Origin: Nannochloropsis oceanica
Taxonomy: Eukaryota > Sar > Eustigmatophyceae > Eustigmatales > Monodopsidaceae
Direction of reading: 5' to 3'
Length of the DNA: 64,000 bases
Assembly: GCA_004519485.1 (NCBI GenBank)
Contig: CP038109.1
Span: 998,745 to 1,062,744 of the forward strand
Of this stretch, positions 17,975 through 61,263 are shown in pieces; positions within the stretch are counted from its first letter, which is position 1, and each line of letters opens with the position of its first letter. Position numbers and translations under genes: made by a program. The notes beneath the pieces are model-generated. The model worked only from the letters and a program-made list of their open reading frames with translations. It had not been told where the DNA came from and did no database searches.

Positions 17975-20605
17975 TTATGCACGCAAAAATCGCTTTCCCT
18001 CCCTCTCCCGTTTACGGCGACGACGAGCTTGCTCCGGTGTCTCATGCGGCTGCTCGGCAACAGTGTCCTGTTCCATGATCGGCTGCTGTACGTTAGGCAG
18101 TGTGTCTGGTTGCTTTGTCATAGGCTCTACCTGCTGGCTCAACACGCCAACATGCTCCTGGCCCTGCATCTTAGGCTGTACTCTAACCTGCGCATCCCCA
18201 GAACTCGTCAAGATTTCTTGGCCAGCGGCTGCCTGCTGCTGCTGCTGCTTGAGGGTCTCGGCAGCAGTGGTTGCCTCGTACTTATCGTCGAATTGCTTAA
18301 TTACGGTCTGACCTACCTGCTTGCCAAGTGCTATGGAAGGTGAAGTAGTGTGCCGCCAGTGGCCACCCGAATACACGCGCGACACTGCGCAATCGTCCGC
18401 AATCTGGGACATGGAGTGGTACGTACGTCGCTGGCCATCAGGCGCTGTCAGGACCAAAGGGAAAGGCGCTTCGTCCTTACCGCTGTTCGCAACCTCTGCC
18501 AAAACCTCAGCCATGGCCCCCCCCAAGCTGGCATGGCCGTTCGGGTACTCGGGTGTCGCGGGCGTGACCCGAAAAGGTTCCCAGTTGCTCGATGCCTCCA
18601 TGTCTTGTCCTTCATTCCCAGTGCGAATGGCCGTGATGGGGCGCCAGGTATTGTAAAAGTACGTGTTATCAAAGGCAGCTACGCGCGTGTCCATAGCCGC
18701 CACACTTGCCATGGCGTAGGCACGTGCGGCCTCGGGAATGCTCAGCGTGACGCGGCCATCTGGGGTAAGCTTCACTAGATCATTAAGGCTATCATTTGCT
18801 TTCCAGGCATCTCCATTCGCCTTCTGATTTTGCCAGTCATTCTCTTTCTGCTGGGTCTGCTGCTGCTGATTCCAGTCATTGTTGTTCCACTGCTGCTGCT
18901 GGTTCCAATTATTATTGTTGTTCCACTGCTGCTGCTGATTCCAGTCATTGTTATTGTTCCACTGTTGCTGCTGGTTCCAATCATTGTTATTCCACTGGTT
19001 CTGCTGTTGCTGCTGATTCCAGTTATTGTTGTTGTTGTTCCACTGCTGGTTCTGGTTCCAGTCGTTGTTGTTCCACTGCTGGTTCTGCTGCTGCTGGTTC
19101 CAGTCGTTGTTGTTCCACTGCTGGTTCTGCTGCTGCTGATTCCAGTCATTGTTGTTCCACTGCTGGTTCTGCTGCTGCTGCTGATTCCAGTCGTTGTTGT
19201 TCCACTGCTGATTCTGCTGCTGTTGATTCCAGTCGTTGTTGTTCCACTGCTGGTTCTGCTGCTGCTGCTGGTTCCAGTCGTTGTTGTTCCACTGCTGGTT
19301 CTGCTGCTGCTGATTCCAGTCATTGTTGTTCCACTGCTGGTTCTGCTGCTGCTGCTGGTTCCAGTCGTTGTTGTTCCACTGCTGGTTCTGCTGTTGCTGA
19401 TTCCACTGCTGGTTCTGCTGCTGCTGGTTCTGCTGCTGCTGGATCTGCTGTTGTTGTTGCGCCTGCTGCTGCTGTTGTTGTAGCTGCTGCTGCTGCTGGA
19501 TCTGCTGCTGCTGTTGGTTGTTAACCGGCAGACCAATCGGGTTCTGTCCGGGCACCGAGGGCGGAGCGTTGGCGTTCTGTGTGGGCATGGGTAGACCCAG
19601 CGCATTAGTGGGAACGTTGGGGTCCTGCACGGGAAGATTATTGGATCCTCCAGCTTGTGCAGGAAAAGCTTGTAAGTTAGTGCCCAGCTGACCTCCGAAG
19701 TCCGAGCCGTTGACGCCTTCGGTACCCGCTCCGCCGCCATTCATGTCGTCTTCTACCCCGGTGACCTGTAGTTGGAGGCGAGGCATCATGGGGTTCGCAT
19801 CCGGAGAGTTAGGAGCGACTGCTGTGAGCTGATCTAAGGCCTGCATCCAAATGAGCTGCGGGTTGTTGGCCCAGAACTCGGCCTTGTCGGACATGTCTGG
19901 CGTGCGGGTAGTGCTGGCACTCCGGCCCAGCTCCTTTAGCTCGATATAGCTTTCACGGTAGACCTCGCTGTTGAGGGGAGGAGGTGGAGGCATGCGGAAT
20001 TCCTGGGACAGTGTTGTTGAATTCAGAACCCAGGGTGTGACCTTGGCCCACTGCACATCTTCTGCGGCATGAAAGTCGGGCGGGGTGGCGCGCCACTTGC
20101 CCGGCTCGTCCGTCCCCATCCAGGGCGTAGCCAGAGTCCGATCGCTGGCGTCATTCAGGCGCACAGCAAGCATCTGGTTCGCCACTTGAGCTCCTCTGGC
20201 TTCTGCCTCCCGGAGTCGTTGCTGGGGCACGTTATTCCTGCCGAGCTGCATCTGTGTCTGGAAGTTGAAGAGCGGCATTGCCGTCGCACTCGCCCGCGGG
20301 GCGATTTGGTCCAAAACTTGCTTGCCTGCGCCTGCCACTGCCGCCTGTAGCTCAGGTTGAAGATCAGGGCTGTGCTGAGCCTGCTGGTTGTCAGCCGTGA
20401 GGCCGTGGGTCTGCAAAAAGTCCTGGACGGCCAAGTGCTGTGCCACATGGAGCATGGCGAGGAGGCGGGTCGTCTCACTGTTGCTGATTTGATTTTGCAG
20501 AAGGTGGTTACGGAGGGCCTGGGACCAGGGAGCGATCACATCGTCCGCTTCACTCCTAGGCGTGACCATGCACAAGAGCAGGAGCGGGAGGAGGAGAATC
20601 CTCAT
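17975..20605 (-). CDS. secreted vanadium haloperoxidase/PAP2-like protein with an internal Q/N/W repeat domain
   Basis: A single-exon gene of 876 residues with a clear signal peptide (ILLLPLLLLCMVTPRSEA, cleavage near residue 20), so it enters the secretory pathway. Vanadium haloperoxidases and type 2 phosphatidic acid phosphatases share an active site. Here it is recognisable as YNTWRPITAIRTGN (about residue 655), TPEYPNGHASLGGA (about 687) and SRVYSGGHWRHTT (about 745), which are the binding Arg, the Gly-His loop and the SR-GxH motif. The loop reads PNGH where most family members have PSGH, so vanadate or phosphate binding may be altered. Residues 21-330 are helical, as in the bacterial-type family. 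Between that and the catalytic half sits a repeat-rich segment (about residues 370-600) built from units like WNQQQQQNQQWNNND. The C-terminal tail is Gln-rich then basic. Halide oxidation versus phosphatase activity cannot be told from sequence. Confidence 0.8.
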   Translation of the reverse strand: MRILLLPLLLLCMVTPRSEADDVIAPWSQALRNHLLQNQISNSETTRLLAMLHVAQHLAVQDFLQTHGLTADNQQAQHSPDLQPELQAAVAGAGKQVLDQIAPRASATAMPLFNFQTQMQLGRNNVPQQRLREAEARGAQVANQMLAVRLNDASDRTLATPWMGTDEPGKWRATPPDFHAAEDVQWAKVTPWVLNSTTLSQEFRMPPPPPLNSEVYRESYIELKELGRSASTTRTPDMSDKAEFWANNPQLIWMQALDQLTAVAPNSPDANPMMPRLQLQVTGVEDDMNGGGAGTEGVNGSDFGGQLGTNLQAFPAQAGGSNNLPVQDPNVPTNALGLPMPTQNANAPPSVPGQNPIGLPVNNQQQQQIQQQQQLQQQQQQAQQQQQIQQQQNQQQQNQQWNQQQQNQQWNNNDWNQQQQQNQQWNNNDWNQQQQNQQWNNNDWNQQQQQNQQWNNNDWNQQQQNQQWNNNDWNQQQQQNQQWNNNDWNQQQQNQQWNNNDWNQQQQNQQWNNNDWNQNQQWNNNNNNWNQQQQQNQWNNNDWNQQQQWNNNNDWNQQQQWNNNNNWNQQQQWNNNDWNQQQQTQQKENDWQNQKANGDAWKANDSLNDLVKLTPDGRVTLSIPEAARAYAMASVAAMDTRVAAFDNTYFYNTWRPITAIRTGNEGQDMEASSNWEPFRVTPATPEYPNGHASLGGAMAEVLAEVANSGKDEAPFPLVLTAPDGQRRTYHSMSQIADDCAVSRVYSGGHWRHTTSPSIALGKQVGQTVIKQFDDKYEATTAAETLKQQQQQAAAGQEILTSSGDAQVRVQPKMQGQEHVGVLSQQVEPMTKQPDTLPNVQQPIMEQDTVAEQPHETPEQARRRRKREREGKRFLRA
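18850..19515 (-). repeat. tandem repeat encoding Q/N/W-rich prion-like domain
   Basis: Units of about 42-48 bases encode Trp-Asn-Gln(4-5)-Asn-Gln-Gln-Trp-Asn-Asn-Asn-Asp with variable glutamine number, roughly fourteen in a row, flanked by a polyglutamine segment. The array is in frame, with no stops, inside the gene at 17975-20605. Confidence 0.9.
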
Positions 20606-29392: not shown

Positions 29393-30015
29393 TGCCGTAG
29401 TCTAGACTCTACAAAGACGATAGATAGAGTATGCCTCTTTTTTGAGCTGACTTCTGTCGTATCTTAAACTGACTCTGCAGTCGCCTTGCCAATCTGTGTG
29501 TGCAACATTTGCCCGCCTGTGGGCAGTAGCTAACGCTATGGGTGTGATGAGGGAGAAGGTGCACGCTCTGTCTGGAGGGGTAACGGGAGCAAAGAAATCT
29601 GACATAGGTTAGGTGAGGCATAATTCTACGTGCGATGTCATGCAATCGTGTTACTGTGTGGTGTTTCCAAGTGCCGAGTCATTTATAAGAGGGTTCAAAA
29701 GATGCCATGCCATCGAGGAGGAGGAGCGATGACGATGGCGAATGAGCCACTGAGAAAGAAAGTGTAGCTTTGCAGACCGCACATCTCCCTGACCTTTCAC
29801 CTTTTCATCTTCACCCGTTAAAGAAACAGCCATGTTGGAAGATGCTAGTGTCTTGTCGTAGTGGCCTTGCCGATAAGTGTCCGTTCCCTCTCTTGGTCTA
29901 CTATCGCCTACTCACTTCTCAATTACTCCATTATGATGCATGCCCTCTCCTCCCCTCCACACCCCTCCACACACATATCACAGATCACTGCGACAAACCA
30001 ATCATCAACCAAGCC
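29393..30015. promoter_or_regulatory. upstream region of divergent CNNM-type and SRP68 genes
   Basis: 623 bases between two start codons on opposite strands. An in-frame extension of SRP68 to 29770 exists but lacks an ATG-led conserved part, so it is treated as 5' UTR. No other gene seen. Confidence 0.5.
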
Positions 30016-32106
30016 ATGGCGGCGGACGATGCCCAAGACAATGTGAACGGTGCAACAATCATTGAGGATTCTGGCAAGACGCCTCCTCCTCCCCTGAACT
30101 TGCGACTCCACCACATGCTCCGCTCCCTTCAACTCCAGCACGGCCTTAGACACGGTGACTACCAACGCTACCGCCACTACGTCACGCGCCGCCTCGTCCG
30201 CCTCCGCAAGGCGGGGAAGGCTACGCACAAGGGCGGCAAGGCCTTTGCAACCAAGGACGTGCACACCCTGGCGAGCGTGGGTGGCGACCCGGCGGCTGTA
30301 AAGATGGAGCACCTGCTGCTATTGCTCCTGAACGCGGAACGGGCCTGGGCATTTGCGATGCAGGTCAAGCAAGACGCGGCCAGCAACCAGCACATGCCCA
30401 GCTACCAGCGTGCCCATCTATTGCGCCGCCTCCGCCGGGCAGCTGTGTGGGCCACGCGCTTGCAGGGCTTAGTAGGGGAGGCGAGCGGGCATGTCACCAA
30501 ACGAACGTCATTGGAAGTGGCGGCTTACGCGGGCTGGATGGCGGCGGGCGTGGACGTGGAACAGGAGCAGTGGGAAGCGGCTCTGGGTAAGCTGCGTACG
30601 GCGCACTCGATCCTGAGCCAGCTAGGGGAGGTGGGGTCGGCGGAGGAGCAGGATTTGTTCTCGAGTAAGGCGGAGGAAGTGATGCAGTCGGCCCGCTTTT
30701 GCCAATACAATTTAGGGGAGGGCTCGCTTGAGGACCTGCAGCAGGTGCAGAGAGAATACGTCCCGCAAGGGCTGAGGGAGAAGCTGGAGGCGGTGATGGA
30801 GGCCTCACGGACCGAGGCGGCCACTGGCTTGGAGACCGTGGAGTGGGGCGGCCGGCACGTGCCTGTTTCGAGCGCCGAGGTGCGGGTTGCCTTGGTCAAA
30901 GTAATTGAAGCTCGCAAGCGTCTATATACCTCCAAAGAGAACGAAGAGGTGGGACAGCAGCAGAAGCAGGAGCAGGAGAGCCAAAGGGAGGAAGCATACT
31001 CGAGTGTGTACGCAGCCTACGATGAGGCCTTGAAGCGGGTAGCGGCGGCGGCGGACAAGGTCGAGGGCATGAGCCATGGTGCCCGTGTGGACGCCCACAA
31101 GGAAGAGCTCAAACTGCTGGCTAGCTACCTGCGGCACGGAAAGCTCGAGACCATGCGCCTGCGGAAGGAGGTGTTGGTTCAGAGCTTGCTGCGAGGCAGC
31201 AATGCGGGCGGGAAACGGGAGGGGAGAGGGAGGCCGGAGGACCTGGTGCACGTGTTGGACGCCTTGATGCAGAACGTGGTTGAGGTTCAGGCCTTGCCAG
31301 GTGTAGAAGAGCTCGAGCCCGTCTTGACGCAAGCGCAGGCCCTCGAAGCTCGCTACCGGGCCCAGCGTGCATTTTACCTGGCAGAGTGCTATGCAGGGGA
31401 GAAGAAGCTGGCCGAGGCCATAGCCCTCTTCGCGAAGGCGGAGACTCTGGGGGAAATGGCGGTTAGTCTGGCGAAAGAGGTGGTGGGGAAGGAGCAGAAG
31501 GAGGGCATGCTTAAGGAGGCCCGAGAGGTGAAAGTAATGGCGGCGGGGGGTAGATGCCGAACTCAAGCCTTGGCTCTGCTGGCTTCCTTGTCCCCGGCTG
31601 CTGCCAGTGGGGCGGTGAGTGAGGAGGCGGCCTTGACGGTTGCACTCTCGGCGCTTTCGCTCTCGGCCGCAACTGCTGCGCGAGCGGAAGATGGAGCGGA
31701 AAAAAGAAGCAAAGGAATGAAGATGCAGCAGCAGCAGAAGAAGGGCAAGGATACGCGGTCGCCGCAGCAGTCGGGCACGAGCACGGCAAAAGCAATGTCA
31801 GGCGCGTCATCGAGGGGCCCAAAAGCAGGCACTGACTTTGAACCGGCGTCACGGACCTTGCTGGAACGGTTGGGGGAGATCGATGGCGGCAAGGAGATCA
31901 GTGGATTTGGTATCGCGCGCATGCCACCCACGGTGATGCCGGTACGGGCCAAGCCCCAGCTTTTCGATATGGCCTTCAACTTTCTGGAAGGACGCTTGCC
32001 AGACCTAGCTATCAAAGCGGGTCTGCCCCCGAACAAGAGGGCAGGCCCACGGGGGGGAGAAGGTTCGTCCGGAGTTGGAGGGTTGTTTGGGTGGTTGAGA
32101 GGATAG
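30016..32106 (+). CDS. SRP68: signal recognition particle subunit SRP68
   Basis: An intronless gene of 696 residues from ATG 30016. SRP68 pairs with SRP72 on the SRP RNA and is needed for delivering ribosomes with signal peptides to the ER. The N-terminal RNA-binding region is recognisable: LQLQHGLRHGDYQRYRHYVT followed by RRLVRLRK, then LLNAERAWAFAMQVK and YQRAHLLRRLRRAAVWA, in the family's order. The rest is an all-helical TPR-like repeat region with ECYAGEKKLAEAIALFAKA, a low-complexity basic linker (about 585-640) and a final FDMAFNFLEGRLPDL, which is the SRP72-contacting end in this family. Length fits SRP68 (about 600-700). Upstream in-frame sequence to 29770 looks non-conserved. Confidence 0.92.
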   Translation: MAADDAQDNVNGATIIEDSGKTPPPPLNLRLHHMLRSLQLQHGLRHGDYQRYRHYVTRRLVRLRKAGKATHKGGKAFATKDVHTLASVGGDPAAVKMEHLLLLLLNAERAWAFAMQVKQDAASNQHMPSYQRAHLLRRLRRAAVWATRLQGLVGEASGHVTKRTSLEVAAYAGWMAAGVDVEQEQWEAALGKLRTAHSILSQLGEVGSAEEQDLFSSKAEEVMQSARFCQYNLGEGSLEDLQQVQREYVPQGLREKLEAVMEASRTEAATGLETVEWGGRHVPVSSAEVRVALVKVIEARKRLYTSKENEEVGQQQKQEQESQREEAYSSVYAAYDEALKRVAAAADKVEGMSHGARVDAHKEELKLLASYLRHGKLETMRLRKEVLVQSLLRGSNAGGKREGRGRPEDLVHVLDALMQNVVEVQALPGVEELEPVLTQAQALEARYRAQRAFYLAECYAGEKKLAEAIALFAKAETLGEMAVSLAKEVVGKEQKEGMLKEAREVKVMAAGGRCRTQALALLASLSPAAASGAVSEEAALTVALSALSLSAATAARAEDGAEKRSKGMKMQQQQKKGKDTRSPQQSGTSTAKAMSGASSRGPKAGTDFEPASRTLLERLGEIDGGKEISGFGIARMPPTVMPVRAKPQLFDMAFNFLEGRLPDLAIKAGLPPNKRAGPRGGEGSSGVGGLFGWLRG

Positions 32107-35835: not shown

Positions 35836-36077
35836 GTTAGGGTTAGGGTTAGGGTTAGGGTTAGGGTTAGGGTTAGGGTTAGGGTTAGGGTTAGGGTTAG
35901 GGTTAGGGTTAGGGTTAGGGTTAGGGTTAGGGTTAGGGTTAGGGTTAGGGTTAGGGTTAGGGTTAGGGTTAGGGTTAGGGTTAGGGTTAGGGTTAGGGTT
36001 AGGGTTAGGGTTAGGGTTAGGGTTAGGGTTAGGGTTAGGGTTAGGGTTAGGGTTAGGGTTAGGGTTAGGGTTAGGGT
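35836..36077 (+). repeat. telomere repeat array (TTAGGG)n
   Basis: About 40 perfect TTAGGG units reading 5'-3' toward the gap, the orientation of the right-hand end of a chromosome. Confidence 0.98.
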
Positions 36078-36177
36078 NNNNNNNNNNNNNNNNNNNNNNN
36101 NNNNNNNNNNNNNNNNNNNNNNNNNNNNNNNNNNNNNNNNNNNNNNNNNNNNNNNNNNNNNNNNNNNNNNNNNNNNN
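36078..36177. other. assembly gap of exactly 100 N
   Basis: One hundred N, the conventional placeholder for a gap of unknown size, lying between two telomere arrays of opposite orientation. Confidence 0.99.
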
Positions 36178-36401
36178 CCCCTAACCCTAACCCTAACCCT
36201 AACCCTAACCCTAACCCTAACCCTAACCCTAACCCTAACCCTAACCCTAACCCTAACCCTAACCCTAACCCTAACCCTAACCCTAACCCTAACCCTAACC
36301 CTAACCCTAACCCTAACCCTAACCCTAACCCTAACCCTAACCCTAACCCTAACACTAACCCTAACACTAACCCTAACCCTAACCCTAACCCTAACCCTAA
36401 C
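36178..36401 (+). repeat. telomere repeat array (CCCTAA)n
   Basis: About 37 CCCTAA units, the orientation of the left-hand end of a chromosome. Two variant CTAACA units lie near 36350-36367, close to the chromosome side. Confidence 0.98.
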
Positions 36402-51963: not shown

Positions 51964-54806
51964 TTACCGCCGAGACGAGCTACGTGTGCTGCGCGTCGCC
52001 CTGGTAGTAGGGGCAGAGGAATCAGTGGAGGAAGGGACCTCGACTGACGCAGCCTTACCGCGCACCGTTCTGGCGATTGTAGTCTTCATCGTCTTGCTGC
52101 TGGTGCTGCTGCTTTTATCAGCCTTGGCTGCCGTCGCTGGTGCCGGTACAGCCGCCTTTCCACGGGTCGCTCGGGTGACCGCCCGCTTCTTCGGCTGCTG
52201 CTGCTCCTCCTCTTTCTCTTCCTTTTTCTCATTTTCCACCGCCTCCTTCTTCTTCCTCCCTCTCCCCCTTCCTCCCACCTTCGGCACAGCTTCCTTCTTC
52301 TCTTCCTTCTCCATCTCGTCATTCTTCTTCCTCCCCTTTCCTCCACGCGTGGACACAGGCACCGGCATCGACACAGCAATGGCTGGGGCTCTCCTCCGCC
52401 CTCTACCACCACCACCACCAGCAGCAGCTGCCGCCGGCGGGGCCGCAGCAGCTGCAGCAGGAGGCAGGGAGAGAGGGCGGCAGACTCGACAAAACCAATC
52501 GCCCTCGGGCACTTCCTCAAGCCCGACCTCGTCCAGGACGAATTCACCGTCACAGCCGTCGCAGAGTATGGCCAGGACTGACTCCATACCCTGGGGATAG
52601 GGAGGGGGGATCAAAGAGAGGGAGGGGAGAGAGGAGAGGGAGGTGAGAGAGGCCGTCGCTTCAGAGGATAAGAGGCTCCTGGAAAGAGAAAGAGGGGGGG
52701 GGGGGAGCACGACGTCGCTGTAAAGATTCAGCTTACCTCGCCTTCCTCCTCCGACGCAGCCGCCAGCTCCGCAGCACTAATCTTTATATGCTCCTCCTCC
52801 TCCTCTTCCTCTTCCTCTTCCTCTTCCTCCTCCTCCTGGTGAACCTGCACCTCAGCGTGCTCCATCTTCCTTTCCTCCTCTTGCTGTACAGCTTCCTCTG
52901 CAGCTGCTGCTGATGCTGCCTCCTCCCTCTCCTTCAGGAGCGAGGTTACGTGCGCACAGAAGCCTAAAGGAAGAAAGCAATATAAGATGAATAGGTCAGT
53001 ACACACGAAGATACAAACACATATCTCTACCCCTTCCCGTGACAGCCTCCTTTATCTGTCCCTCTTCCACTCAGAGCTTCCTTCCTTCTCCTTTGCCCCT
53101 CCTTCCTTTCCTCCCTCCCTCCCCCCCTGCCCACCTTGCCGATCTGCTAGGTACGTGTCAAGGGCCACGCCACAGGCGTAGTCGGGAGTCACACCGCCCG
53201 TCGAGGCCATCTCCTGAGGGAGGGAGGGTAAGACCGATCGTCAAAGGTGGACCGGGAGGTGGGAATATACAAGACAACACACCATATACCCTCCCCCTCC
53301 TTCGCTCCCTCCCTCCCTCCTTTGCTCCCTCCCTCCCTCCTTCCTCACCTTGGCGTATAATTCCACCAAACGCAAGTCTTCCTCGTCGTCGTCCTCTTTC
53401 CCTTCCTCCCTCCTCTCCTCCACGGGTGAGGAAGCGGAGCACGGGGAAGACACGGTCTAGGGAGGAGGGAGGGAAAGAGGGAGGATAGGAAGGGAGAAAA
53501 GGTGGTGAACGCGCCGCTCCATGTAGCCATCCACTAAGGGAGGGGGAAGGCACGGACCTGCAAGTGTTCCTGTCGGAGACCGTGAGGGTCAGCCAGATAT
53601 TGCTCCACTCCCCACTCATGCGCGCTGGCCGGGTTGGAGGGAGGGAGGAAAGGAGGGAAAGAGGACGGATGAGAATGTGTCAGCATCTGAGTCTGACGAC
53701 CCACCGCCTAATCCATCTTAGCCCCTCCCTCCCTCCCTCCCTCCTTCCCTCCATCTCTACCTTAGCGCCCCCAACGCCTCTTCTTGGAGATCTTTCTCTG
53801 ACTCGCGACGGACTGCAAGCACAGAGGGAAGGAGAGAGGGAGGGAGGGAGGGAGGGAGGGAGGGAGGGAGGGATGGAGGGAGGGGTTATTCAGTGTACGA
53901 GGGAGAGAAAAGACATCTGGGCAGGGGGAGGGAGGGAGGGAGGGAGAGGCGGAAGGAGGTAGTGATGGACAGCCACGTACCTCCATCCATGCTCGTGCCC
54001 ACCAACAGCTCCTCAGCCACCTCACTCTCATCTTCCTCCCTCTCGACCTCCTCCTGGCGGTCGTTGTGGCCCAGGTAGTCTGTCAGAGATGTGCCTTGGA
54101 GGATACCCGGAGCCTGAGGAAGGGGGGAAAGGAGGGAGAAGAGGAGAGCAGATGAGTCCCTCCTCACACAGGGAGACATGGAAGCTGATGAAAATGGAAG
54201 GTAGGAGGGAAGGAAGCAGGTAGAGAGAAAGGGAGGGGGGGGACAAACCTGCGCCCCGGCAGCGTAAAACTGATCGAGGAAGGTCTGCTGCTTTCGGGCG
54301 GAGGTCAAGCAGGGCAGGGGGTGGTCCAGCTGGAGAGGGAGGGGAGAAAGGGATGAGTGGGTGCAGAGGTACACCGAAAGAGCCGGCGCGCATGGAGAAG
54401 GGCGGTCAAGGATAAAGGGGAAGGGAGGGAGGAAGGAAGAGAGAAGTGGAGGGAGGCATAAAACCTTCTTTCACCCGAAACACACCTCGTCGTCCTCTTC
54501 CCCGTCCCCCCTCTCTTCCGAGCGGGCGGCCTCGTCGTTTTCCTGAATGAGTCGAGGCTGGCCCAGCTCCTCCAACAAGGAACGACGGCGAGGCTAGGAG
54601 GGATGATAAGGGAAATTGAAAGGGAGAAATGGAGCAAAGAGGGGGAAATGGACATCAGGAAAAAAGAGAATAGGTACCAAAAAAAGCATACATGCCCTGA
54701 TAAACGACAATCACCCATCCATCTACCAATGACCACTCCCTTCCTCCCGCTTGTAATTATCTCACCTCTCCTGCCTCCTCCTGCTGCTGCTCGCCTTCTT
54801 CTTCCC

Positions 54807-54837
<31 letters not shown>

Positions 54838-55169
54838 CTCCTCCTCTGCTTCGTCCGCGTTGGAGAGGGACATGGGCCCGGTGACGGCAGCCGCTGAAGT
54901 GGAATTGCGAAGGGCCGACCGCGGGGCGGGGGAGAAGGAGGACGAGGTCGTGGGAGCAGGGGAGAAAGCAGCACCTGCCGTGACGGCTGCGGGTGTGGCA
55001 ACGCGCTTGGACTCAATTGCCGCTCGAAGGGGTGTAGGGAGGGAGGCAGGGCGGGAGGGGAAAGAGAAGGAGGGAGGGATACCGGCGTGCATGGGCGTCT
55101 GAACACGCTTGGCTTGGATGGCGTTGCGGATGGGAGTAGGGAGGGCGGGGGGGCGGGAGGGAGGGCTTC

Positions 55170-55221
<52 letters not shown>

Positions 55222-58200
55222 AGTGGCAGCTAATGCCTCTGGTGTGGGAGGAGTCAGAGAGACTCCCGCAGTCTGCATGGACACCCTGCGGGCATTGATG
55301 GCGCTACGGACAGGGGTAGGGAGGGCGGCAGGGCGGGAGGGAAGACGAGTACGGGGGGCAGCGGGAGTGACGGCCATGCCTCGTTGGGTTTCAAATGCAT
55401 CCTCCTCCTCCTCCTCTTCCTCGACTACCTCTACTTTCTCCCCCTCTTCCTCCTCCTCCTCCTCCCTCGCAAGCAGCGCCAGGATCGCCGCCGAAGGCCG
55501 CAGGAAGGTGTGTCGCTCCTGCTGCTGCCGCTTGTGCTGGTGCTCGTTCCGGTGAAGGAATCCCTCCTCAAAGACGTCTTGGACCTCCAACCTGCCCTTC
55601 TTCTCCTCCACCATTCGCCGCTCGCGCATGCGCGGAGGGCCCATGGGCGTCAGAGCCATCGCACGCTGCCTTTCAAACGCATCCTCCTCCTCTTCCTTCT
55701 CTTCCACTTCTTTCCTCCCTTCCTCCAACTCGGCATGGCTCTGTCGACGTGCGTGGATGGCACGCACCAGAGGGGTAGCCATCTTCTTCGTCCTCCCTCC
55801 CTCCCTCCCTCCTCGCGGAAGGGCCGGCGTTAGGGTCATGCCTCGCTGCGCCCCAAACGCATCGTCTGCCTCCTCCACCTCCTCCTCCACCTCCAACCTT
55901 TGTTCTCTCCCTTCCGCCCCAGGCGCGACCCGACGCGGACGAGCGGCCTTGGGGCCGGCCGGCGTCAAGCTCATGTGCTGCAGGAAATGCCTCTCCTCCT
56001 CCTCCTCCTCCTCCTCCTCCTCCTCCTCCTCCTCCTCCTCCTCCTCCTCCTCCTCCTCCTCCTCAGCCTCCAGGTCTGCCTGTGTGTAGTTCGCGATCCG
56101 TCCGACCATTGCGTATCGAGCCGGGGTCAGGGGGGAGGCATGGCGGGAGGTGGAGGGCGGGAGGGAGGAAGGGGTGCCACGGGAGGCGGTATGGGGCAAC
56201 GGCCTGGCAAAAGGTGAGTGGGCCGGGCGCTCAAATAGCCCCTCAGAGAGGACCGACACCCCTCCCTCCATTCCTTCCTCCTCCTCATCTTCCTCCTCGT
56301 CCTCCTCCTTCTCTTCCCCCTGGACCATGGAGTCCAAGATCTCCCTCGCCACCCCCGAGGTACGCCCATCCTTCTCCCCCACCACCAGCACTCGTGCCGT
56401 CGCTCCCACTCCTCCCTTCGCCATCACCCTCCTATTTATCATGCCTTTCTTCACGTGCAGGGAAGGCGTCAGGGCCATTTCTCGCTGGGCCAAAAATGCA
56501 TCTTCCTCCACCTCTCCTTCTTCCTCCTGCTCCTCCTCCTCCTCCGCAGAAACAGCAGCCCCCGCAGTGGTGGTAGTGGTGTAGCTGAGGCGGCGACACT
56601 GAATGGCTCGCCTCAAAGGAGTAGGCATGCGCAACATCTTCCTCCCCTCACTCCCTTCCTCCCTCCCTCCTTCCCCCCCCGAGGCTGACAAACGCCGCGC
56701 CTCCTGCATGGCCGACCCGGTGCCGCTCGCCCCAAGCGCTACCTCCTCCTCTTCCTCTTCCTCGTCTTCTTCATCCCTTGTTCTATCCCCCGCCTCGATC
56801 GCCTTTGCCTCTTCCTCCTCCTCCTTCTCTTCCACCCCCGAATAGCTCTGTCGACGTGCGTGGATAGCCCGTGCCAGAGGGCTAGCCATCTTCTCCTTCC
56901 TCCCTCCCTCCCTCCTCCCCCGAGGCGCCGCGGGCGTCAGAGTCATGCCTCGCTGTGCCCCAAACGCATCCTCCTCCTCCTCTTCTTCCTCCTCTGCTGC
57001 AGCAACAGCTGTCCGACGAGGAGGACGAGGGCCCATGGGGGTCAGGGCAAGGGCGCGCTGGGCGGCGAAAGCGTCTTCCTTGTCTGATCCCCGCAGTACC
57101 GTCCGACGAGGAGGACGGGGACCCGCAGGTGTCAAGGTGATCTGCTGCAGGTATTGCTGCTCCTGCTCCTCCACCGCTTCCTCCCTCCCTTCCTCACGCT
57201 GAGGCGTGAGAGAACTGACACGACGGGTGCTAATGGCCTGTCGGAGAGGGGTGGGCATGGCGGAGCGGGGAGCAACAGCACCAGGAGCAGCAGCAGCACT
57301 CCTACTCCCCGCCTGAGTCTTCTTGAGGGGAGTGGTCATGGAGGTGGAGGAGGAGGATGAGGTGCGCCGGGCCTGGATTGCGCTTCGCACAGGGGTAGGG
57401 AGAGCGGGAGGGCGGGACGGCGGGCGGGTACGAGGCGCTGCGGGAGTCACAGTCATGTTCCGCTGGGCGTCGAAGGCGTCTTCCTCTCTTTCCTCGCCCT
57501 CCATCTCCTCGTAGACTGGAGCACTCACGCTGCTGTGGCTCTGACGACGGGCATCGATTGCACTGCGCAGAGGAGTGGCAAGCCTGTTCCTCCCTTCCTC
57601 CCTCGCTTTCTCCTCCTCCTCCTCTTCCACCACCTGCTGGTTGCTGTAGCTCTGACGACGGGCGTCGATGGCACTGCGCAGAGGAGTGGCAAGCCTGTTC
57701 CTGCGCACCTCCACTCCTCTTTCCTCGCCTTCCTCCTCTTCCACCACCTGATGGTTGCTGTAGCTCTGACGACGGGCATCGATTGCACTGCGCAGAGGAG
57801 TGGCAAGCCTGTTCCTGCGCACCTCCACTCCTCTTTCCTCGCCTTCCTCGCCTTCCACCACCTGCTGGTTGCTGTAGCTCTGACGACGGGCATCGATTGC
57901 ACTGCGCAGAGGAGTGGCAAGCCTGTTCCTCCCTTCCTCCCTCGCTTTCTCCTCCTCCTCCTCTTCCACCACCTGCTGGTTGCTGTAGCTCTGACGACGG
58001 GCATCGATTGCACTGCGCAGAGGAGTAGCCAGCCTGTTCCTGCGCACCTCCACTCCTCTTTCCTCGCCTTCCTCCTCTTCCACCACCTGATGGTTGCTGT
58101 AGCTCTGACGACGGGCATCGATTGCACTGCGCAGAGGAGTGGCAAGCCTGTTCCTGCGCACCTCCACTCCTCTTTCCTCGCCTTCCTCGCCTTCCACCAC

Positions 58201-60981
58201 CTGCTGGTTGCTGTAGCTCTGACGACGGGCATCGATTGCACTGCGCAGAGGAGTGGCAAGCCTGTTCCTCCCTTCCTCCCTCGCTTTCTCCTCCTCCTCC
58301 TCTTCCACCACCTGCTGGTTGCTGTAGCTCTGACGACGGGCATCGATTGCACTGCGCAGAGGAGTAGCCAGCCTGTTCCTGCGCACCTCCACTCCTCTTT
58401 CCTCGCCTTCCTCCTCTTCCACCACCTGATGGTTGCTGTAGCTCTGACGACGGGCATCGATGGCACTGCGCAGAGGAGTAGCCAGCCTGTTCCTGCGCAC
58501 CTCCACTCCTCTTTCCTCGCCTTCCTCCTCTTCCACCACCTGCTGGTTGCTGTAGCTCTGACGACGGGCATCGATGGCACTGCGCAGAGGAGAAGCCAGC
58601 CTGTTCCTGCGCACCTCCACTCCTCTTTCCTCGCCTTCCTCCTCTTCCACCACCTGATGGTTGCTGTAGCTCTGACGACGGGCGTCGATTGCACTGCGCA
58701 GAGGAGTAGCCAGCCTGTTCCTGCGCACCTCTACTCCTCTTTCCTCCTCCTCCTCCTCCTCCTCTTCCACCACCTGCTGGTTGCTGTAGCTCTGACGACG
58801 GGCATCGATTGCACTGCGCAGAGGAGTGGCAAGCCTGTTCCTGCGCACCTCCACTCCTCTTTCCTCGCCTTCCTCGCCTTCCACCACCTGCTGGTTGCTG
58901 TAGCTCTGACGACGGGCATCGATTGCACTGCGCAGAGGAGTGGCAAGCCTGTTCCTCCCTTCCTCCCTCGCTTTCTCCTCCTCCTCCTCTTCCACCACCT
59001 GCTGGTTGCTGTAGCTCTGACGACGGGCATCGATTGCACTGCGCAGAGGAGTGGCAAGCCTGTTCCTCCCTTCCTCCCTCGCTTTCTCCTCCTCCTCCTC
59101 TTCCACCACCTGCTGGTTGCTGTAGCTCTGACGACGGGCGTCGATGGCACTGCGCAGAGGAGTGGCAAGCCTGTTCCTGCGCACCTCCACTCCTCTTTCC
59201 TCGCCTTCCTCCTCTTCCACCACCTGCTGGTTGCTGTAGCTCTGACGACGGGCATCGATGGCACTGCGCAGAGGAGTAGCAAGCCTGTTCCTGCGCACCT
59301 CCACTCCTCTTTCCTCGCCTTCCTCCTCTTCCACCACCTGCTGGTTGCTGTAGCTCTGACGACGGGCATCGATGGCACTGCGCAGAGGAGTAGCAAGCCT
59401 GTTCCTGCGCACCTCCACTCCTCTTTCCTCGCCTTCCTCCTCTTCCACCACCTGCTGGTTGCTGTAGCTCTGACGACGGGCATCGATTGCACTGCGCAGA
59501 GGAGTAGCAAGCCTATTCCTGCGCACCTCCACTCCTCTTTCCTCCTCCTCCTCCTCCTCTTCCACCACCTGCTGGTTGCTGTAGCTCTGACGACGGGCAT
59601 CTATGGCACTGCGAAGAGGCGTAGCCAGCCTGTTCCTACGCACCTCCATCTCTTCCTCCCTCCATTCCTGTTTCTCCTCCTCCTCCTCCTCCTGCTCCTG
59701 CTCCTGCTCCTTTTCGTCCTCGTACACAGGTGCCGCCACGCTGCTGCTCCTCCTGGCCTCCATTCTCTGTCCTGTTTCTTTATTCTCTTCCTCCTCCTTC
59801 TCCTCCCCTTTCTCCTTCAGCACCTGCTGATCGCTGTAGCTCTTGCGGCGGGCATCAATGGCGCTGCGTAAAGGAGTAGGAAGCCGGCTGCTGCTGTTTT
59901 TATTCCCTTCCCCCGGCGTGACCGAGTCGGAGAGGGACGCAGGCAGGGAGCAAGGGAGGGGGAAAGGGGTGTAGCTCTGACGGCGGGCCTGAATGGCGCG
60001 TTTGAGAGGGGTGGGCATCGGCTCTACCTTCACTCCCGCTGTGGAGGGAGGGAGGGAGGGGCCGGAGGACGAGGAGCTCTGGCCGCGCGCCTCGATGGTC
60101 TTTCGAAGAGGGGTTGCCAGATGCGCTTGAATCGAGGAGGAGGGAGGGGGAGAGGACAAGGCCTTCTTTGCCAGGGTGGGAACAGGCTTGGGGTTGGCGT
60201 GGTTTGCGAGCTGGCTGGGACGGAGGGGTGCAGCAGGGGAGGAGGGAGGAGGTGACGATCCATTCCCACGCCGGCCTTTCTTCGCACTGCTGCCCTGGCT
60301 ACTGCGGCGGGAGAGCTTGAGAGCAGAGGCAGGAGCCCGAGCGTCTTCTTCCATTATGACTTTGGAGGGGGACTTCAGGTTCTCTTTGTCCACCAATGAG
60401 GCCCGACGCAGAGACGCACGCCTCCCTCCTCCTCCTCCTGCCCCAAACCCCAGCGCCGCCCGCTTGGCCGCTGCCACGTCATTCATAAGCTGAGTGGCGT
60501 CCGAGTCCTCTTCCTCTCTAATTTCCTCCTCCCTCCCTCCCTCCTCCCGCTGTGGCTGCAAGTACTCGAAGCGAAAGGAGCGGTCGGCCACGACAAACAC
60601 GTCGCCGTGCTCCAGTCGCACGGTGCTATCTTTTTTGCCCTTGCTCAGCTTCTTCCCGTTGACCATAGTCGGATTCACTTCCGAGTAGTTCGTCAGCATG
60701 ACAACCACCTCCTCGTCCTCCTCCACCTCCTCCACACGCAGCTCGGCATGCTTCCGCGAGACCCAGGGCAAGGCAATGCGAATGTCGCATCCCTCGTGTC
60801 GCCCTATCGTCGCCTGCCCTCGACTCAAAGGGAAATGCCCACCATCTTTCCCGTTCCGTCGGATGACAACAACATTACCCACCGGCGGGGAGGAAGGGAG
60901 GGAGGAAGGGGAGGATGTCCCAAGAGGCAACTTCATGGACGCCTCCACCTGCTCGTGCTGCGAGGCAATGGCGGCCAACAT
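51964..60981 (-). CDS. giant Ki-67-like FHA protein with TPLR/ARRxS repeats and a PHD-like finger
   Basis: Ten exons join in phase to about 2,565 residues: 60981-54766, 54593-54486, 54329-54249, 54113-53981, 53812-53761, 53624-53558, 53456-53349, 53213-53135, 52963-52737 and 52590-51964. The start is the first ATG in the open frame, which itself runs back to 61032 without an ATG. FHA domain at about residues 36-140: GHFPLSRGQATIGRHEGCDI, RIALPWVSRKHAE, NPTMVNGKK and LEHGDVFVVADRSFRFEY. This matches the Ki-67 FHA pattern (HFPLS, CDIRIxLPxVS, NPTxVNG, HGDV and DRSFR) far beyond generic FHA. FHA domains bind phosphothreonine; Ki-67 coats mitotic chromosomes. Then about nineteen near-identical units around LATPLRSAIDARRQSYS (447-1151), more divergent copies to the end of exon 1, and a second motif family (DAFGAQRGMTLTPAAPR). 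The C-terminal half has acidic helical exons, a PHD-like CDGCDGEFVLDEVG...FCRVC, and a basic GRGRKKK/TRATR tail. Nuclear, chromatin-associated function is inferred. Confidence 0.85.
55173..55221 (-). repeat. (CTG)n/(GCA)n coding polyalanine
   Basis: About sixteen CTG units on the plus strand, read as GCA (Ala) in the giant gene's first exon. Confidence 0.85.
55993..56064 (-). repeat. (GAG)n coding polyglutamate
   Basis: About 24 TCC/CTC units on the plus strand, read as GAG (Glu) in the giant gene between an ADLEAE segment and the next LTPAGPK motif. Confidence 0.85.
57527..59640 (-). repeat. coding tandem repeat, about 19 units of 108-120 bp
   Basis: Units of 36-40 codons, in frame, each containing the LATPLRSAIDARRQSYSN core followed by an acidic linker. 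Linker variants recur in the order B-D-C, giving a higher-order period of exactly 339 bp between equivalent positions 57602, 57941 and 58280. Confidence 0.95.
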
Positions 60982-61263
60982 GTTGCTGCTGCTGTTGTTG
61001 CTGCTGTTGCTGCTACTGCTGTCGTCACCCAAAATGTGGCTGCAGTCTCAGAAGCGGCAAAAACTTGTTTGTTTCTTACCTGTGCAACGGAGAGAAGGGA
61101 AAGGAGGCAGAGGTGGAATATGGGTGAGACTCACGATGGGTGCTGATATGTTGGGCCGTGGGAGGGAGGGCGGGTCAGGGGGAGAGAGGCACATGTGGCC
61201 TAGAAAAGATGCAGAATGTAAAGGAGCAAGCAAAGGATGTCAAGGCGAAGCACAAGAAGTTGT

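Follow-up and report, generated by a model that had tools for sequence, protein, structure and literature searches.

A gene on the minus strand of Nannochloropsis oceanica contig CP038109.1, running from position 60981 to 51964 of the 64,000-nucleotide stretch analysed here (the window), very probably encodes a member of the bridgin/Ki-67-type family of FHA proteins. The gene was assigned to this family because its FHA domain is kin to that of Ki-67 and because the deduced protein has the architecture used in a published screen for bridgin homologues, namely an N-terminal FHA domain, an unstructured middle and a basic C-terminus (PMC7794384). The FHA domain is closest to that of Ki-67 and lies at the N-terminus (residues 36-140 of 2,565), the centre is disorder-like and, given a correct splice model, the C-terminus is basic. 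A preliminary description of the locus had proposed the Ki-67 plan of an N-terminal FHA domain, a long repeat-rich charged region and a basic end. This plan was retained while the likeness failed in overall charge, as the whole algal protein is acidic (net -132, pI 5.0) and human Ki-67 is basic (+125.85 when unphosphorylated; PMC8786303). The accompanying remark that Ki-67 is best known from animals proved too narrow, since bridgin has been published in fungi, bridgin-like proteins are described in Amoebozoa (PMC9252888), and FHA-PP1-repeat proteins occur in corals. Bridgin-type relatives in fungi and amoebozoa are therefore already known, and the algal protein is a variant of them with a different motif array. 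A stramenopile relative of Ki-67 or bridgin was not named among the literature matches listed, and the supplement of PMC7794384 may tabulate one. In the N. oceanica genome paper FHA occurs once, counted within a table of transcription regulators, and Ki-67 is not mentioned (PMC3499364).

Ten exons, all on the minus strand, could be joined at GT-AG sites into a frame of 2,565 residues. Exon 1 (54766..60981; 6,216 bp, residues 1-2072) is an open frame that includes the FHA domain, an array of TPLR motifs and a region of divergent motifs, ends at a GT-AG donor and belongs to a single-exon ORF of 2,091 residues (54757-61032, minus strand) in which an ATG lies at 60981. It is followed by exon 2 (54486..54593), which is bounded by GT-AG sites and preserves the frame, exon 3 (54249..54329), exon 4 (53981..54113), exon 5 (53761..53812), exon 6 (53558..53624), exon 7 (53349..53456), exon 8 (53135..53213), the acidic exon 9 (52737..52963), and exon 10 (51964..52590), which includes half a PHD finger, a basic tail and the stop codon at 51964. 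The introns measure 101-172 bp, all nine have GT-AG ends with fitting phases, the joined exons add up to a multiple of 3 and their sole stop is the last codon, and the ten-exon model put forward in the preliminary description was thus sound as sequence. The unspliced exon 1 reaches a stop at the third codon past the donor (54757-54759), as would be expected if the model were an annotation chimera in which exon 1 and exons 2-10 were two genes and the basic end lay outside the FHA protein. Such a chimera is distinctly unlikely given the matching phases of the nine GT-AG introns, the zero internal stops and a gap of just 172 bp between exons 1 and 2.

The FHA domain (60562..60876, minus strand; residues 36-140) scored 46.4 bits against the Pfam FHA model. 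The strings GHFPLS, GCDIRIALPWVS, NPTMVNG, LEHGDV and DRSFRFEY, from which a likeness to Ki-67 had originally been proposed, were all five located in the minus-strand frame and in that order. In a comparison with 177,635 distinct PDB sequences, human Ki-67 chains came out on top (E 2.3e-22 and 3.9e-22), and the best non-Ki-67 chain was OdhI at 1.4e-6, followed by weaker matches to DUN1 (3.5e-5), MDC1 (3.5e-4) and CHFR (0.011). Rad53 was absent from the 32 PDB matches at E<=10, which is a comparison of scores only. The match lies well beyond the level of generic FHA sharing, as had been claimed, because the best non-self PDB match of the Ki-67 FHA domain itself is just 2.6e-7. The genome searched comprised 29,264,788 bases in 32 contigs, in which the chlorophyll-binding protein family, for instance, gave 36 matches with exon pieces counted singly. 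When the Ki-67 FHA domain was searched against this 29-Mb genome, the gene described here was returned first (3.2e-21, 52% identity over 92 residues) and the next-best of the three matches stood at 1.1e-3.

The GR, SxxH and NG positions, which are the canonical FHA positions for phosphothreonine binding, are kept in the algal domain when aligned with Ki-67. According to PMC4037201, the Ki-67 FHA domain departs most from the other FHA domains of that comparison in its loop 6, which is unusually short and holds Asp92; the long ligand places one strand between this loop and loop 1, and tight binding is limited to the extended ligand. In the loop-6 stretch the algal DRSFRFE aligns gap-free with DRSFRYE of Ki-67. 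A structure prediction of the FHA domain alone, run without an alignment, had a mean pLDDT of 39 and was unusable for loop geometry.

A total of 15 FHA matches were identified in the genome including the Ki-67-type one, and five of the 14 others were compared with the PDB. The best matches were NIPP1 for C11:918230 (1.8e-15), CHK2 for C3:800021 (8.6e-9) and nibrin for C2:366643 (1.5e-12), while C6:819852 matched SNIP1 (8e-40) and DDL (2e-39) and C23:268345 matched NIPP1 (2e-8) and then kanadaptin (1.1e-7); Ki-67 was the best match for none of these five. A maximum-likelihood tree of 26 rows and 117 columns was constructed from the algal FHA domain, 13 PDB domains and 12 of the 14 other genome matches. 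Two truncated genome matches were left out, as were MDC1, DUN1 and Rad53, and some of the PDB rows were aligned fragments as printed by HMMER and not whole domains. The algal and Ki-67 domains were grouped at 98/95 in this tree, in which 13 of the 23 inner branches were open and in which, as in the score comparisons, human Ki-67 was the only reference of its family. AU tests rejected six other partners (p 0.000145-0.0064), each represented by one member, namely CHK2, the genome's own CHK2-like domain, NBS1, kanadaptin, SNIP1 and OdhI. Clustering with a rival family, raised in the preliminary description as the alternative outcome with kanadaptin, Rad53/Chk2-like and plant FHA proteins as examples, did not appear (AU p 0.00015 for kanadaptin and 0.0007 for CHK2). 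Plant DDL fell within the SNIP1 clade, and two closely related FHA matches (G000:C5:901601 and G000:C8:430537) formed a clade of their own at 100/100.

Judged by the score gap, the reciprocal best hit and the tree, the sequence likeness between the algal and Ki-67 FHA domains is a family relationship. FHA domains are short, and this together with the open branches would leave room for convergence, whereby an unrelated FHA domain had grown similar to that of Ki-67; set against the 98/95 clade and E-values that lie about 16 orders of magnitude apart, convergence is highly improbable. The same comparisons bear on a DNA-damage or chromatin-signalling FHA scaffold of the MDC1 kind, in which the half PHD would serve as a chromatin contact. 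MDC1 has a plan of an N-terminal FHA domain plus repeats and was among the weaker matches listed above. Its FHA match is nevertheless 18 orders of magnitude weaker than that of Ki-67, BRCT was absent from the Pfam matches of exon 1 and of the spliced rest, and the motif sites described below are CDK-type, so that an MDC1-like role is quite improbable.

The TPLR-motif array occupies residues 366-1145 (57547..59886, minus strand) and comprises 20 motif copies, in which one variant unit precedes 19 near-identical units spaced 37-40 aa apart. TRF placed a tandem array at 57531-59648 with periods of 114, 225 and 339, and within each unit a basic block NRLATPLRSAIDARRQSYS alternates with an acidic linker. 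Ten divergent TPLR motifs lie outside the array, two before it and eight in the post-array region (54766..57546, minus strand; residues 1146-2072), for a total of 30 copies of roughly [LM]xTP[LVI][RK]xAIxARRxS in the protein. Twelve copies, consisting of the ten divergent ones and two from the array, were aligned and had the consensus xxLPTPLRxAIxARRxS, in which P and I never vary and T, A and R are each kept in at least 90% of copies. The full CDK consensus (TP[LVI][RK]) was present in 28 of the 30 motifs, [RK]Rx[ST] in 27 and both in 25. The whole protein has 32 S/T-P-x-K/R sites compared with 3.1 +/- 1.7 in 1,000 shuffles, 12 of these sites are outside the array (2.5 +/- 1.5 in shuffles), and [RK]Rx[ST] sites number 34 over the whole protein (5.6 +/- 2.3 in shuffles). 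A genome search with a single unit gave 24 matches, 23 of them inside the FHA gene, and around the lone outsider (E 0.9) the pattern [ST]P[LVI][RK] was not found in its three plus frames. Among viral contigs there were 11 pattern matches, none of which was confirmed. A second short repeat was observed at 54766-57546, where nine [LVI]TPxxP matches, six of them after DAFxxQR, are interleaved with the TPLR motifs.

Substitution rates among 11 array units were pS 0.13 and pN 0.004 for the motif and pS 0.018 and pN 0.026 for the linker, and dN/dS over 20 array units was 0.05. Purifying selection on the motif within the array was considered and set aside as weak, as the codon contrast between motif and linker comprised eight variable codons in non-independent copies and was not significant (Fisher p 0.11). 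Conservation in the ten divergent copies outside the array is, at the level of sequence, the better sign of constraint. Charge-hydropathy values were negative in all four central segments (-0.06 to -0.27) and in the tail, and the long central region is by this measure predicted to be disorder-like.

Several hallmarks of Ki-67 were sought in the algal protein and genome. The PP1_bind model (PF15276) had no match at E<=10 in exon 1, where the HMMER filters let few matches weaker than about 0.1 through, and none in a genome search in which the controls gave no signal either. The RVxF pattern, which every Ki-67 orthologue is said to retain (PMC8354752), did not occur in the 2,565 residues, and the Ki-67 repeat (K167R, FKELF-type) was absent from the six Pfam matches of exon 1 at E<=10. 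A strict Ki-67 identity was accordingly given up, and the algal protein is not Ki-67 in the strict sense because the PP1-binding motif and the Ki-67 repeat were not found in these searches and its net charge is acidic. With regard to the LR chromatin-binding domain of Ki-67, the observation in the algal protein was a basic tail. The genome's PP1 has an Arg (LLTVRG) at what is presumably the Ki-67-selecting position of PP1 gamma. The best hNIFK_binding match in the genome reached 16.4 bits against a cut-off of 25 bits.

Two proposals that the repeat imitates a known Ki-67-related element were rejected. The order of elements in the NIFK ligand (pTP – LERRKS – acidic – strand) resembles the repeat by eye, yet alignment scores for the repeats as mimics of this ligand were not above those of shuffles (fractions of 0.70, 0.12, 0.56 and 0.085 for four units). 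For the repeat as a degenerate KiR-SLiM (LPxNTPL[RK]; the general motif is given in PMC5005033), two of 12 comparisons with Ki-67 and Repo-Man segments fell below 0.05 (0.031 and 0.026), uncorrected for 12 tests and with a Ki-67 segment that carries T in place of the M of the solved chain, which favours a match.

Exons 2–9 are acidic, with a net charge of −58 over 285 residues. Within exon 10, a half PHD finger of the form CDGC-x20-CRVC was recognised at residues 2367-2394 (52480..52563, minus strand) by its similarity to an intact PHD, with Pfam scores below the cut-off (PF23011, 16.1 of 27 bits; PF00628, 11.3 of 24 bits). A complete PHD encoded at another locus shares 59% identity with it over 32 residues, the best full relative being at C10:515524, and the full PHD has HLAC where the half PHD has VLDE. 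The four cysteines that remain presumably correspond to the second zinc-binding site in a cross-braced PHD; the structure prediction of the half PHD was poor (pLDDT 56.5). The basic C-terminal tail of 171 residues (51967..52479, minus strand) has a pI of 11.3 and a net charge of +24.

Charge is distributed along the array in blocks, the standard deviation of charge over 15 residues being 0.23 compared with a maximum of 0.20 in 500 shuffles. When the CDK sites were phosphorylated in silico this value fell to 0.19, and to 0.18 when the RRxS sites were added, with the net charge of the array predicted from sequence to shift from -34 to -114 once both site types were phosphorylated. Charge blocks of Ki-67 control its phase separation, and phosphorylation generates such blocks in Ki-67 and raises its condensation tendency, whereas in NPM1 phosphorylation diminishes a charge block and suppresses condensation (PMC9106583). 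The algal array is predicted to be of the NPM1 sign, in that phosphorylation would lower its blockiness, opposite to Ki-67.

The best explanation, and one that we hold to be reasonably probable, is that the gene encodes a long flexible nuclear scaffold of the bridgin/Ki-67 type that would be located on the mitotic chromosome surface or linked to the kinetochore. From the domains, motifs and charges observed we infer how tethering, phosphorylation and localisation could combine into a function. The basic tail would hold the protein on chromatin, the FHA domain as a putative phosphothreonine reader at the free end would bind an extended phosphothreonine ligand in the way that NIFK is bound by human Ki-67, and the middle would be a CDK-controlled polymer. 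Prior to mitosis the alternating charge blocks would favour self-association, mitotic phosphorylation would erase the basic blocks and leave the array as an extended brush of mostly negative charge, and cohesion would return once the protein was dephosphorylated at mitotic exit. The outcome would be a scaffold on the surface of mitotic chromosomes or one tied to the kinetochore.

The architecture fits equally well with a bridgin-like working, in which the FHA domain and part of the disordered region would reach the outer kinetochore and the basic tail the centromeric chromatin. The searches above recovered neither PP1_bind nor Ki-67 repeats, as would suit such a protein, and Ki67 is described as the metazoan homologue of bridgin, with bridgin-like proteins extending beyond fungi and the tail of bridgin replaceable by the basic region of Ki-67 (PMC7794384). 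In our judgement a CDK-type motif array resembles a polymer coat more closely than a point linker, and the bridgin-like working is on balance rather doubtful.

The surroundings of the gene were also inspected. A long CTG-rich tandem array of about 42/87-bp units is located at 18848-19513 inside an 876-aa ORF that also has a match to the VCPO helical-bundle domain (PF22778, 6.6e-07), and an SRP68 gene with a 778-aa open frame is located at 29770-32106 (PF16969, 8e-105). At 35836-36401, rightward (TTAGGG)n and leftward (CCCTAA)n are separated by 100 N, representing two telomeres head to head, and a mis-join in scaffolding is the most likely cause of this junction. To its right lie some 110 kb of the 1,145,269-bp contig, which would place the FHA gene at 16-25 kb from what is likely the end of a chromosome. 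In regions near telomeres genes are often shuffled. This proximity to telomere repeats, an exon 1 that is one uninterrupted 6.2-kb exon, and a comparison that rests on a single distant reference sequence would be compatible with horizontal transfer, whereby an FHA exon from an animal or fungus was joined to an unrelated algal repeat gene. The 52% identity to the human domain gives, as we read it, no sign of a recent vertebrate-like donor, and such a transfer is considered unlikely.

The presence of a bridgin/Ki-67-type gene in this alga suggests that Ki-67-type chromosome proteins are older or more widespread than the animal and fungal examples show, and, unless the algal gene came by horizontal transfer, the origin of the family would reach back to a further eukaryotic supergroup. 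More tentatively, it is possible that a Ki-67/bridgin-type chromosome protein predates the split of opisthokonts, amoebozoa and stramenopiles. The stramenopile form might then have swapped PP1 docking and Ki-67 repeats for about 25-30 two-kinase switches, each combining CDK and RRxS sites in one 19-residue motif, that would flip the protein between a sticky block polymer and a negative brush, with a one-zinc half PHD added as a chromatin contact. Ki-67, which marks proliferating human cells, is among the most used medical markers, and the working of its disordered repeats is still debated. An algal relative with a different repeat would help to sort what is essential (the FHA domain, length, CDK switching and a basic end) from what is dispensable, which in this comparison would be PP1 docking, the Ki-67 repeat and net positive charge, and would do so in a distant, small-genome and probably transformable alga.

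Among the known systems, Repo-Man (CDCA2) has a short LP..TPL[RK] stretch that resembles part of the algal motif, a weak likeness in which two of 12 shuffle fractions were below 0.05, and the RVxF motif that enters this comparison was not found in the algal protein. The coral MOON proteins (SpMOON1) share an N-terminal FHA domain and tandem repeats, which are C-terminal in MOON and bind DNA there, and they have a PP1 domain (PMC11417379), which was not found in the algal protein. Cryptococcus bridgin (Bgi1) and the fungal and amoebozoan bridgin-like proteins share by description the N-terminal FHA domain, the unstructured middle and the basic C-terminus. Bridgin measures 1,295 aa compared with 2,565 in the alga, and a motif array like the algal one is not described for it in the relevant passages of PMC9252888. 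Unlike vertebrate Ki-67 (MKI67), the algal protein has another repeat motif, is net acidic and has a half PHD added, the PP1-binding RVxF/KiR-SLiM and the Ki-67 (FKELF) repeat were not found in it, and the predicted effect of phosphorylation on its charge blocks is opposite. Human Ki-67 has 90 CDK1 consensus sites, 70 of them in its repeats, and all of the repeats are in one exon (PMC8354752). The algal protein shares with it an N-terminal FHA domain of the same family, a giant, disorder-like middle that is rich in repeats and carries many CDK consensus sites, the placement of those repeats in one large exon, and a basic C-terminus.
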